From Sneathiella sp. (lineage in GTDB: Bacteria > Pseudomonadota > Alphaproteobacteria > Sneathiellales > Sneathiellaceae), in assembly GCF_029233945.1 (NCBI RefSeq), contig NZ_JARGOQ010000031.1, positions 1 through 44,777 on the forward strand: a DNA stretch of 44,777 nucleotides, written 5' to 3'. A program made the translations under genes and the position numbers. The notes below the pieces were generated by a model. It ran no database searches. It was not told the DNA's origin and was given only the letters and a program-made list of their open reading frames with translations. How positions within the stretch are numbered: position 1 is the stretch's first letter; each line of letters begins with the position of its first letter. Positions 11,493 through 16,466 of this stretch are shown in pieces.

Positions 11493-13313
11493 CTAACTCC
11501 CTGCGATTTCCTCCTGCAGAATTTCGAGTTCCAGCCAGCGGGTTTCCGCCTCATCCTTGTCGGATTGCGCCTTGGCGAGGGCGTCGGCCTTTTCCTTGAA
11601 CTTTTCCGGGGTCTTGTTGAACAGGTCCGGGTTGGCAAGATCCGTTTCCAGCGACTTGATGGCCTTTTCCAGCTCTTCGATCACGTCGGGGAGGCGCTCA
11701 TAATCGCGCTGGTCCTTGTAGGTGAGTTTTTTACGCGGGCCGGAGGATTTCTGCGCCGTCTCTTTTGATTTGGCGGCTTTGGCGGGCGCTTTTTCTGCGT
11801 CCCTTTTCATGCGCATGTAATCGCTGTAACCGCCGACATATTCCGCCGCGCGTCCGCCCTCCTCTATCACGATGGTGGAGGTCACGAGTTGATCGAGGAA
11901 TTCGCGGTCATGGCTGACGACCATCAGGGTCCCGTCATAGTTTGAGAGCATATCCTGCAACAGATCGAGGGTTTCCATATCGAGATCGTTGGTCGGCTCG
12001 TCAAGCACCAGAAGATTGCTCTCCCTTGCGAGCAGTTTCGCAAGCAACAGACGGTTCTTCTCCCCGCCCGAAAGCGCGCTGACCGGGCTTTTCGCCTGCC
12101 GGTCCTCAAACAGGAAATCGCGCAAGTAAGCCACCACATGGCGCACTTCGCCGCGCACCAGAAGCTGGCCACTGCCCGGATCGGCGAGCGTATCCCAAAG
12201 GCTCATCTCGGGATCGAGGCTATCGCGGTGCTGGTCGAAAATGGCGGGCGTCAGGTTGGTGCCGAGCTTGACCTCACCGGTTGTCGGCTCCAGCTTCCCC
12301 ATCAGGATTTTAAGGAGCGTCGTCTTCCCCGCCCCGTTCGGGCCGATAATGCCGACCCGGTCACCGCGCATGATGCGCGTCGAGAATTTCTGGAGCACTT
12401 CATGCATCCTGCCGTCCGCATCTTCATAGGTCATGGAGATATCGGTGGCCTCGACGACGACCTTGCCGCTTTTCGCGCCGCTGCTCACATTAAGCTTGGC
12501 GCTGCCCACGGGCGCCGTCCGCTCGGCCCGCTCGGCGCGGAGGCGATGCAGCGCGCGGATGCGCCCCTCGTTACGGGCACGGCGCGCGGTAATGCCCTTC
12601 CGTGACCAGTCGGTTTCCTCGGCGATTTTCTTGTCCAGCTTTTTGGCTTCCACCTCCTCGCGGCGGAGGATTTCCTCCGACCATTCATCGAAGGCCGAAA
12701 ACCCCTTGCCATGGGTGCGGAGCTTTCCCCGGTCGAGCCAGAACAGCCGGTTGGTGAGATTTCTCAGGAATTGCCGGTCATGGCTGATGATCAGCAGCGC
12801 GCCCTTGAAACTTTTCAGCTCCTCTTCCAGCCAGAGGATCGTCTTGATATCGAGATGGTTGGTCGGCTCATCAAGCAAGAGCACGTCGGGATCGGAGACA
12901 AGCGCCTCCGCGAGGCTGACCCGCCGCGCCTCCCCGCCCGAAAGCGTTTCAAGCTGGCGTGTGCCGTCGATGCCGACCCCATGAAGCACCTGATCGACGA
13001 GATAGCCCGTCTCGCTGGCCTCTCCCTCCGCGGGCAGGCCCGACTGCACCTGCTCGAACACAGAGCGGCCGGGGGTGATGACAGGCTGCTGTCGCAGATA
13101 ACTGACGCGAATGCCGCTCTGCAAAAACCGCTCCCCGCCGTCGAGGTCGATATCCCCCGCGAGCGCCTTCAGAAGCGTTGACTTGCCCGAGCCGTTCCGC
13201 CCCATCAGGGCGACGCGCATTCCCGGCTCGATCCCGAGTGAGATGTCGTTGAACAGATCGCCGCCGCCAAAAGTAACGCGGGCGTTTTGCAGGGCCAGAA
13301 TAGGTGCCGCCAT
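11493..13313 (-). CDS. uup: ABC-F family ATPase, Uup-like
   Basis: A soluble tandem ABC ATPase of 606 residues. Both nucleotide-binding domains are intact: Walker A GRNGSGKST and GPNGAGKTT, signature LSGGEARRVSL and LSGGEKNRLLL, and Walker B LLLDEPTNHLD and LVLDEPTNDLD. There are no membrane segments. A charged linker lies between the domains and a C-terminal coiled-coil (about the last 80 residues, KAIKSLETDLANPDLF onward) is the mark of Uup-type ABC-F proteins. These act on ribosomes or branched DNA intermediates rather than as transporters. The start at MAAPILALQN was preferred over an upstream in-frame codon because family members begin there. Confidence 0.9.
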   Translation of the reverse strand: MAAPILALQNARVTFGGGDLFNDISLGIEPGMRVALMGRNGSGKSTLLKALAGDIDLDGGERFLQSGIRVSYLRQQPVITPGRSVFEQVQSGLPAEGEASETGYLVDQVLHGVGIDGTRQLETLSGGEARRVSLAEALVSDPDVLLLDEPTNHLDIKTILWLEEELKSFKGALLIISHDRQFLRNLTNRLFWLDRGKLRTHGKGFSAFDEWSEEILRREEVEAKKLDKKIAEETDWSRKGITARRARNEGRIRALHRLRAERAERTAPVGSAKLNVSSGAKSGKVVVEATDISMTYEDADGRMHEVLQKFSTRIMRGDRVGIIGPNGAGKTTLLKILMGKLEPTTGEVKLGTNLTPAIFDQHRDSLDPEMSLWDTLADPGSGQLLVRGEVRHVVAYLRDFLFEDRQAKSPVSALSGGEKNRLLLAKLLARESNLLVLDEPTNDLDMETLDLLQDMLSNYDGTLMVVSHDREFLDQLVTSTIVIEEGGRAAEYVGGYSDYMRMKRDAEKAPAKAAKSKETAQKSSGPRKKLTYKDQRDYERLPDVIEELEKAIKSLETDLANPDLFNKTPEKFKEKADALAKAQSDKDEAETRWLELEILQEEIAGS

Positions 13314-13388
13314 GGAAATTTCGCCAAAAAGAGTATGAGGTCTGCGGCCTTTTAACACTGAATTGGCGGATGGGGCAATTTTATACCG

Positions 13389-15733: not shown

Positions 15734-16276
15734 CTATTTCACATGGCGAATGACATTGAAGCCTTCGCCCGGCATCGGCGGGATAAAGAAACGGCTGAAC
15801 ATGTCGAACTCGGCGTCGCTGGCCTTGTAGGGATGATCGCCCGTCTTGTTCCGGGCGCGCAGCCGGGATTTGCAGATCGTGTTCGGGATGTCGAGGAAAT
15901 GCAATTCATGCGGCACCTTTGCGGTCTCGAACAGCTCCCGTCCCCAGCGGCGACTGTCGGGTGTATTGGCGGGAAAGTCGAGCACAACGGAAAAGCCGGA
16001 TTTCAAAAGCCGGGCGATATGGTCCTTCAGCGCATATTTCAGCCGGATAGAGGAACGGATATAGTCGCTGATATCATCGATCTCGCCGGGATAGAGCTCG
16101 TTCAGAAGCACATCCTCTGAAAAGAGAAAGGTCTTGGGCCGCTCCGCGAGCTTGGCGGCGAGTGTCGATTTGCCCGCGCCGATCTTGCCCGCAAGCAGAT
16201 AGAGAACCGGTTCGGTCGGACGACTGTCCGGTTCCTTGCTGGGCGGCGTTTCTTCCTGAGGGGTTTCTTGTAACAT
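15734..16276 (-). CDS. AAA family ATPase / small P-loop kinase-like protein
   Basis: A 180-residue P-loop protein of the AAA_33/zeta-toxin-like kinase group. The Walker A is LLAGKIGAGKSTLAAKLA at about residues 27-44, and VVLDFPANT looks like the Walker B-like strand with an Arg-rich lid (SRLRARNKTG). The N-terminal 20 residues are disordered and acidic/Pro-rich. The ATG follows an AGGAG Shine-Dalgarno. The 5' region carries a promoter, a structured RNA and an intrinsic terminator ending about 40 bp before the start, so it may be controlled by transcription attenuation. The substrate is unknown; no antitoxin partner is seen. Confidence 0.72.
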   Translation of the reverse strand: MLQETPQEETPPSKEPDSRPTEPVLYLLAGKIGAGKSTLAAKLAERPKTFLFSEDVLLNELYPGEIDDISDYIRSSIRLKYALKDHIARLLKSGFSVVLDFPANTPDSRRWGRELFETAKVPHELHFLDIPNTICKSRLRARNKTGDHPYKASDAEFDMFSRFFIPPMPGEGFNVIRHVK

Positions 16277-16316
16277 TTTTCATCTCCTGGTTTAGGGGGC
16301 CTTCGGAGACGGGGCA

Positions 16317-16341
16317 TTAAAAAACCGCCTCAGAGGGCGGT
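16317..16341 (-). terminator. Intrinsic terminator upstream of the P-loop ATPase gene
   Basis: On the minus strand, AACCGCC is paired with GGCGGTT across a short loop, followed directly by a run of six T. It ends about 40 nt before the ATG of the P-loop ATPase gene, so it closes either a small RNA or an attenuated leader. Confidence 0.7.
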
Positions 16342-16430
16342 TGGATCGTAGCCGTTAAGGCATACAGACTTCCGCCATTCGGGGAATGGAGAGAATCTTC
16401 ACCACAATAATGTTTGCGTTGTATGCCATG
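16318..16430 (-). ncRNA. Candidate structured small RNA or attenuator leader
   Basis: A region of about 113 nt with every mark of an independent transcript on the minus strand. TTGACA lies at 16461-16466 and a -10-like TTTAAA at 16437-16442 (18-bp spacing). Then comes an RNA whose outer arms GGCATACA/TGTATGCC (16420-16427 with 16359-16366) pair perfectly and enclose a CCATTC-GAATGG hairpin (16375-16389). An intrinsic terminator follows. No convincing ORF is inside. It matches no RNA family I can name; 6S, SRP and tmRNA do not fit by eye. It could be a free sRNA or a riboswitch-like leader of the P-loop ATPase gene. It is divergent from the suf operon. Confidence 0.5.
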
Positions 16431-16436
16431 CGCGTA

Positions 16437-16466
16437 TTTAAACGGCAGTTTGGGCCCGTTTGTCAA
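16437..16466 (-). promoter_or_regulatory. Sigma70-like promoter for the structured RNA
   Basis: A consensus -35 hexamer TTGACA (16461-16466 on the minus strand) and an AT-rich -10-like TTTAAA (16437-16442) with 18 bp between them, placing a start near 16430. The -10 is poor relative to TATAAT, but the exact -35 and the downstream structured RNA with its terminator support it. Confidence 0.5.

Follow-up and report, generated by a model that had tools for sequence, protein, structure and literature searches.

The window analyzed here is a whole 44,777-nucleotide stretch of Sneathiella sp. DNA, and the parts of the element described here lie on its minus strand. Beside the suf genes, a short element precedes a gene for a 180-aa P-loop kinase (Pfam AAA_33, E 1.8e-27; 15734..16276). 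An earlier note on this DNA had described the element as a structured RNA of about 113 nt with its own promoter and terminator, and when we read and folded the sequence we found these parts in place. There is a –35 element TTGACA (16461..16466), an 18-nt spacer and a –10-like element TTTAAA (16437..16442), followed by 8-bp closing arms (GGCATACA and TGTATGCC) around a CCATTC/GAATGG hairpin. The RNA ends in an intrinsic terminator (AACCGCC-CTCTGA-GGCGGTT followed by T6; U tract at 16319..16324, end at 16319), and about 40 nt separate the terminator from the kinase ATG at 16276. The fold of the window RNA has an energy of –35.6 kcal/mol (z = –2.75), which was equally low in 1 of 200 shuffles. 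A terminator scan recovers the terminator; however, it finds 2 terminators in the 2-kb region as compared to a shuffle mean of 2.0, which is chance level, so conservation is the better evidence. The promoter was not listed by scan because TTTAAA fails the scan's –10 rule.

The earlier note had read the RNA as non-coding; however, it holds a leader ORF of 24 codons (MAYNANIIVVKILSIPRMAEVCMP, stop TAA; 16355..16429) that was overlooked. Its ATG at 16429 lies seven bases past the –10 element, at the predicted transcription start, and the transcript would be leaderless. Of 24 genomes from the genus, eight keep the element, the window's among them, and each time it lies between an Rrf2 gene and the kinase gene. 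In all eight copies the leader ORF is intact, TTGACA is kept and the ATG lies 35 or 37 nt from TTGACA. The sole indel among the eight ORFs is an in-frame 3-nt insertion (in G014), and the stop codon alternates between TAA and TGA at one fixed position. Variable sites are spread evenly over the three codon positions (7, 6 and 7) with no third-position excess, so there is no clear purifying selection on the leader peptide. Differences that are synonymous are a little commoner in the leader frame (61/168) than in the other two frames (34/152 and 36/160), and a second reading frame is likewise open across the ORF in all eight copies. The closing arms, which fall within leader codons 1–4 and 22–24, retain at least 7 pairs in every suf-locus copy, with compensatory change absent. 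The earlier note had looked to conservation of these arms in relatives, and this holds within the eight suf-locus copies only, as we did not see such arms by eye in the other 23 leaders of the same type that are described below. A 30-nt match in another genome of the set (G005) is the terminator alone and was not accepted as a copy of the element.

The leader peptide could itself be a functional small protein, with the terminator merely ending its message, and the preservation of the ORF in all eight copies is what such a protein would give. In contrast, peptides of different clades have little in common beyond an isoleucine-rich core, and the missing third-position excess also argues against a selected product. 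We therefore regard a functional peptide as very improbable.

To see how far the element extends, we compared the regions upstream of P-loop ATPase homologues, a check that the earlier note had proposed, and found the same leader plan in 31 leaders (A-type); these comprise the eight suf-locus copies and leaders before kinase relatives elsewhere in the genus and among further Alpha-, Beta- and Gammaproteobacteria. Searches for kinase relatives recovered them from 21 of the genus's 24 genomes, from 28 of 385 alphaproteobacterial genomes (5 of the 28 from the genus), from 18 of 369 genomes of the Acidovorax record's class and from 32 plasmid records. We read by eye the DNA preceding about 80 kinase loci and saw these 31 A-type leaders and 11 leaders of a second kind (B-type); one leader (L156) looks decayed, at one locus (L124) the leader stands before an SgcJ/EcaC gene ahead of the kinase gene, and at the remaining loci the contig ended or we saw no leader. 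When 69 kinases are placed on a tree, the A-type label needs 5 changes as compared to a shuffle mean of 22.5, near-copies included. No A-type leader is found on one well-supported branch, formed by 11 kinases that are more distant, or in 17 nearer kinases, those of Kiloniella for example. The earlier note had placed the element with suf. The same plan precedes kinase relatives at other loci, and because the element accompanies the kinase there, the suf neighbourhood is incidental and we rejected a link to suf or iron.

The predicted leaderless start recurs outside the window. Of 40 A-type leaders, 31 have their best –10-like hexamer ending 5–8 nt ahead of the ATG (mononucleotide shuffles: mean 13.0, maximum 24), and the figure is 25 of 33 when the suf-locus copies are reduced to one (shuffle mean 10.9, maximum 18). 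The window hexamer scored in this count is the overlapping TTAAAT.

Three pairings can form in every one of the 31 kinase leaders: a hairpin 1:2, an antiterminator 2:3, and 3:4 as either a terminator or a hairpin. Hairpin 1:2 lies close to the end of the ORF or right at it, a C-rich segment 3 comes next, and hairpin 3:4 comes last. In the window, segment 1 (CCATTC; 16384..16389) is the 5' arm of hairpin 1:2, and segment 2 (GAATGGCGG; 16372..16380) pairs either with segment 1 or, via GGCGG, with segment 3 (CCGCC; 16336..16340), which is the 5' arm of the terminator. Segment 4 (GAGGCGG; 16325..16331) is the 3' arm of the terminator and has an alternative partner in segment 5 (CCGTCTCC; 16305..16312), which is complementary both to segment 4 and to segment 6, the Shine-Dalgarno region AGGAGAT (16282..16288). 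Since segment 3 is common to both, the antiterminator 2:3 and the terminator 3:4 are mutually exclusive in 31 of 31 leaders. Helix 3:4 is followed by a U tract, as in a terminator, in 20 of the 31; it lacks one in six Sneathiella leaders, in G681 and in four enterobacterial leaders. In an alignment of 16 leaders, hairpin 1:2 shows covariation, with a two-helix score of 0.244 as compared to a shuffle mean of 0.165 (0 of 500 shuffles), and 4 of its 9 pairs change on both sides.

A structured RNA with a terminator and a possible helix sequestering the Shine-Dalgarno sequence would also suit a ligand-binding riboswitch that works independently of translation. However, no conserved core is apparent outside the helices in the 16 aligned leaders, and the in-frame indel, the conserved start position and the in-frame isoleucine codons all point to translation, so that we give a riboswitch next to no weight.

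To measure how a translating ribosome would affect the competing helices, we folded the part of the RNA that ends with segment 3, masking the ribosome footprint for each A-site codon in turn. In all 31 kinase leaders, the probability of 2:3 is at least 0.95 at four or more A-site codons, with the ribosome just before segment 1, and it drops towards the stop codon, where it is at most 0.27 in 29 of 31 leaders (the exceptions are B. pyrrocinia at 0.61 and G681 at 0.39). In a related leader, L197, it is still 0.92 with the ribosome at the stop. When no ribosome is present, the probability of 2:3 is 0.59 in the window leader and 0.88 to 0.99 in G005, G004, G009, G022, P. dispersa and the E. coli copy; termination would therefore not be assured in a leader that is left untranslated. 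Equilibrium folding of a longer RNA gives the window leader a probability of 3:4 of at least 0.93 at every ribosome position, so its switch must rest on the order of folding; the equilibrium value drops below 0.5 in only 15 of the 31 leaders, the window's own not included.

Downstream of the terminator, the exclusive helices formed by segment 5 may add a translational layer. In the window, helix 4:5 was matched by 21 of 200 shuffles, which is weak, and pairing of segment 5 with the Shine-Dalgarno segment by 4 of 200. With related leaders counted singly, at most 10 of 200 shuffles matched 4:5 in 17 of 31 leaders and the Shine-Dalgarno pairing in 12 of 31. Opening of the Shine-Dalgarno segment is near-constant along the ribosome scan in nearly all leaders, which speaks little for such a layer. 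We put a translational second layer at slightly under even odds.

To identify which codons a ribosome would be decoding when the antiterminator is favoured, we counted residues in the six critical codons of each leader as compared to the rest of the ORF. Isoleucine makes up 71 of 162 codons inside this critical stretch (44%) and 26 of 352 outside (7%), with 0 of 1000 permutations as high; the count covers 27 of 28 representatives (19 of the 31 kinase leaders plus 9 leaders before other genes, with Thalassospira dropping out). The enrichment is stable over three footprints and three widths of the stretch, and a separate count on the 19 kinase leaders gave 45 of 114 inside and 23 of 247 outside (0 of 2000 permutations). 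Valine is enriched more weakly than isoleucine, and leucine, alanine, serine and threonine show no significant enrichment. The window leader carries isoleucine at codons 7 and 8 (ATT ATT; 16406..16411) and at codon 12 (ATT; 16394..16396), the last in the stretch where a paused ribosome favours 2:3; one isoleucine falls within its six critical codons, and the G014 leader has zero there. All 11 leaders that precede genes other than the kinase gene carry isoleucine within or adjoining the critical stretch. In several of the tests on leaders, each relative entered as a case of its own.

What we computed is the parts and how they are conserved, which pairings compete and where the isoleucine codons fall; from these we infer a course of transcription, translation and pausing, and a signal. 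The element would be a ribosome-mediated attenuator before the P-loop kinase gene that senses slow isoleucine decoding, and we give this reading a probability of roughly 0.7. The promoter would start a leaderless transcript at the ATG of the leader ORF. A ribosome moving at normal speed would reach segment 2 and the stop codon, 3:4 would pair, and transcription would terminate at about 16319, leaving the RNA of about 113 nt as an sRNA-like product. A ribosome held at isoleucine or valine codons would instead cover segment 1, so that 2:3 would pair, no terminator would form and the kinase gene would be transcribed. The simplest cause of such a hold would be too little charged isoleucine tRNA. 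An attenuator controlling the kinase gene is very likely; slow isoleucine decoding as the signal is the part we favour less firmly. The regulated gene is no known isoleucine gene, which is a point against the reading. The earlier note had left a free sRNA, a riboswitch and an attenuator side by side, and of these it is the attenuator that the data favour as the main reading.

In searches with known RNA families, nothing in the window exceeded an Rfam cut-off. The best weak match is RF00624, P9 ('Pseudomonas sRNA P9'), at 18.3 bits; this is far under the gathering score of 43, so we call the window's element a relative of P9 and not a member. P9 is over its cut-off at 3 of 12 A-type loci searched (L107, L150 and L023), at L159, L160 and L162 (its own finds in a genome search) and at L195, and just under it (42.5 to 42.7) at the same-genus locus L038 (G007, 42.5), L028 and L153. 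A hit to a well-known Rfam family, which the earlier note had counted against a new element, is thus found for relatives only, where scores exceed 43. At a lax threshold P9 matches 11 of 12 leader loci; the exception is the Vibrio leader L216, which has no P9 match even at E 1. Over 369 genomes the P9 model found 22 places, 4 of them over the cut-off, and of the 18 below it three were read: those in G459 (L163) and G681 (L178) are leaders by sequence, and L164 is without a leader. But for L164, the P9 matches that we read are thus ORF-carrying leaders, with the window's leader a diverged P9 relative.

A covariance model, R1, that we built from the 16 leaders found 24 places in 707 genomes, made up of 10 leaders of its own training, three new leaders (L184, L195 and L197) and 11 others (L186–188, L196 and L198–204), which looked like ordinary terminators and were rejected. 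The kinase leaders of G005 and G015 escaped R1, and its match in G001 is at another place. The leader of a GNAT gene that it found (L184) resembles the Rfam Trp_leader family, below the cut-off (36.8 vs 41 bits).

P9 and the related leaders have a hairpin and terminator plan in common; in contrast to a leader, P9 is typed by Rfam as Gene and named an sRNA. The terminated RNA of about 113 nt could accordingly be a trans-acting sRNA with its own targets, perhaps with a dual function, and for rnTrpL, an attenuator product of S. meliloti, an action in trans is reported (PMC7298713). However, the counted leaders immediately precede a gene whose start codon lies at most about 110 nt from the leader stop, although some leaders were located through the downstream gene, which favours such gene adjacency. 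In addition, the ORF is kept while peptide and arms differ between clades, and an sRNA needs neither these nor gene adjacency. We consider an sRNA role decidedly unlikely as the main function.

To characterize the regulated gene, we modelled the window kinase with AlphaFold2 (mean pLDDT 86.1). In Foldseek the best matches are polynucleotide kinases, from bacteria and from mammals, along with fungal kinases (E 2.4e-8 for 4gp6). By Z-score, 4gp6 and 4jt2 at 15.4 to 15.7 are level with PSTK (O-phosphoseryl-tRNA kinase) and PFKFB at 16.0. The modelled fold is that of a P-loop kinase like the bacterial Pnkp kinase, and a shared fold shows no function. A search of an antiphage library gave weak P-loop matches only, and one of a phage library gave one family of unknown function (E 8e-25) plus weak P-loop matches. 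Staphylococcal phages carry distant kinase relatives under the annotation 'ZipA protein' or 'cell division protein', and so does a small plasmid of S. aureus (L158, L125).

Related leaders also precede genes of other families. SgcJ/EcaC-type genes lie behind leaders at L159, L160, L162 and L197 (found via P9 and R1) and on plasmids of Azotobacter (L124) and Rhizobium brockwellii (L215); FlaR-like P-loop kinase genes do so at L163 and L195 (via P9 and R1) and at L216 and L218 (Vibrio, plasmid records), and the GNAT gene at L184 (via R1). The SgcJ/EcaC family model is over its cut-off for L160, under it for L197 and without a match for L162, the products of all three match SnoaL/DUF4440, and L159 was placed by likeness to L160. 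The FlaR-like products have sub-cut-off matches to 'DNA topology modulation protein', for which we take 'FlaR-like' to be the corresponding label. Among plasmid relatives of the SgcJ, FlaR-like and GNAT genes, a leader is present at 4 of 15 loci read (L124, L215, L216 and L218) and absent at 11, including all 7 GNAT relatives. On the Azotobacter plasmid (L124, 2577-3468), the SgcJ/EcaC gene overlaps a kinase gene and comes first in one unit behind an A-type leader. On a Nostoc plasmid (L217, 901-1966), a FlaR-like kinase gene overlaps a GNAT gene, and no leader was seen.

The best NCBIfam match of the L184 GNAT is NF040702, a model for isoleucyl-tRNA synthetases carrying an acetyltransferase domain, at 63 bits (full-length cut-off 1999) and within the acetyltransferase domain. 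Of three comparison GNATs, one is without an NF040702 match, and in two the model is absent among the best 25 matches listed. Because it concerns one locus and the seven plasmid relatives are without a leader, a link between the GNAT and isoleucyl-tRNA synthetase is a lead only. This match, together with a kinase fold near kinases that act on RNA or tRNA and equally near PFKFB, is the basis for a speculative extension in which P9-related leaders would be a mobile isoleucine-decoding switch of a scattered regulon (AAA_33 kinase, FlaR-like kinase, SgcJ/EcaC and GNAT) protecting against a poison of isoleucyl-tRNA synthetase or tRNA-Ile; we hold this extension to be doubtful.

The same set of genes bears on another explanation, in which the upstream ORF senses ribosome-targeting antibiotics in general and isoleucine codons are merely a convenient pausing context. 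The downstream kinases, GNAT and SnoaL-like proteins resemble drug- or metabolite-modifying enzymes, relatives of these genes are found on plasmids, and E. coli toiL, the upstream ORF of topAI-yjhQP, is reported to sense several antibiotic classes and to report translation stress to an accessory gene (PMC12121999). In contrast, the critical codons are strongly isoleucine and less so valine, with the other four residues counted not significantly enriched, which makes a general antibiotic sensor improbable in our view. The proposed isoleucine attenuator is like toiL in that a predicted upstream ORF would report translation stress to an accessory gene; they differ in that toiL works through translation and Rho-dependent termination (according to a data-set title cited in PMC12121999), and an intrinsic terminator or hairpin is found here.

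Among other known systems, S. meliloti trpL is reported to have a leaderless upstream ORF at the RNA 5' end, a terminator and antiterminator, and a free terminated RNA (PMC7298713), all of which are predicted from sequence for the leaders here; however, trpL has tryptophan codons and a biosynthetic gene, and the present leaders have isoleucine codons and accessory enzymes. Among the papers listed by our literature searches, we saw none on such a leader. If the attenuator reading is right, it provides a testable mechanism for a family catalogued by Rfam among the sRNAs, and leaderless leader ORFs of one kind would occur in Alpha-, Beta- and Gammaproteobacteria. Four accessory enzyme families would be joined by one likely control signal, slow isoleucine decoding, which would be a direct clue to what the kinases and acetyltransferases act against. 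In E. coli, the ilvGMEDA, ilvBN and thr attenuators use isoleucine/valine or threonine/isoleucine leader codons to control biosynthesis operons. The likeness to these lies in control by such leader-peptide codons, and the difference in what is controlled: biosynthesis operons there, and a P-loop kinase, SgcJ/EcaC, FlaR-like kinase or GNAT gene here.

The 11 B-type leaders (L039, L101, L104, L105, L106, L110, L112, L121, L149, L151 and L155) precede the same kinase family and have an ORF ending in RI..PA or similar, with a GC-rich hairpin over the stop and no U tract. We excluded them because folding showed no consistent switch, and an Rfam search at four B-type loci gave no match over the cut-off at the leader. 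In G007 (L038), the kinase gene is followed by a gene that by eye is a relative of an ABC-type ATPase gene, whose counterpart in the window lies farther on (11493-13358). Lastly, E. coli FDAARGOS_1373, the single match to a Phytobacter query among 5426 E. coli genomes, carries a kinase gene with an isoleucine-rich (IIIIT) leader (L157, 2595-3101), and its neighbours are YagK/YfjJ-domain, helix-turn-helix and GTPase genes.
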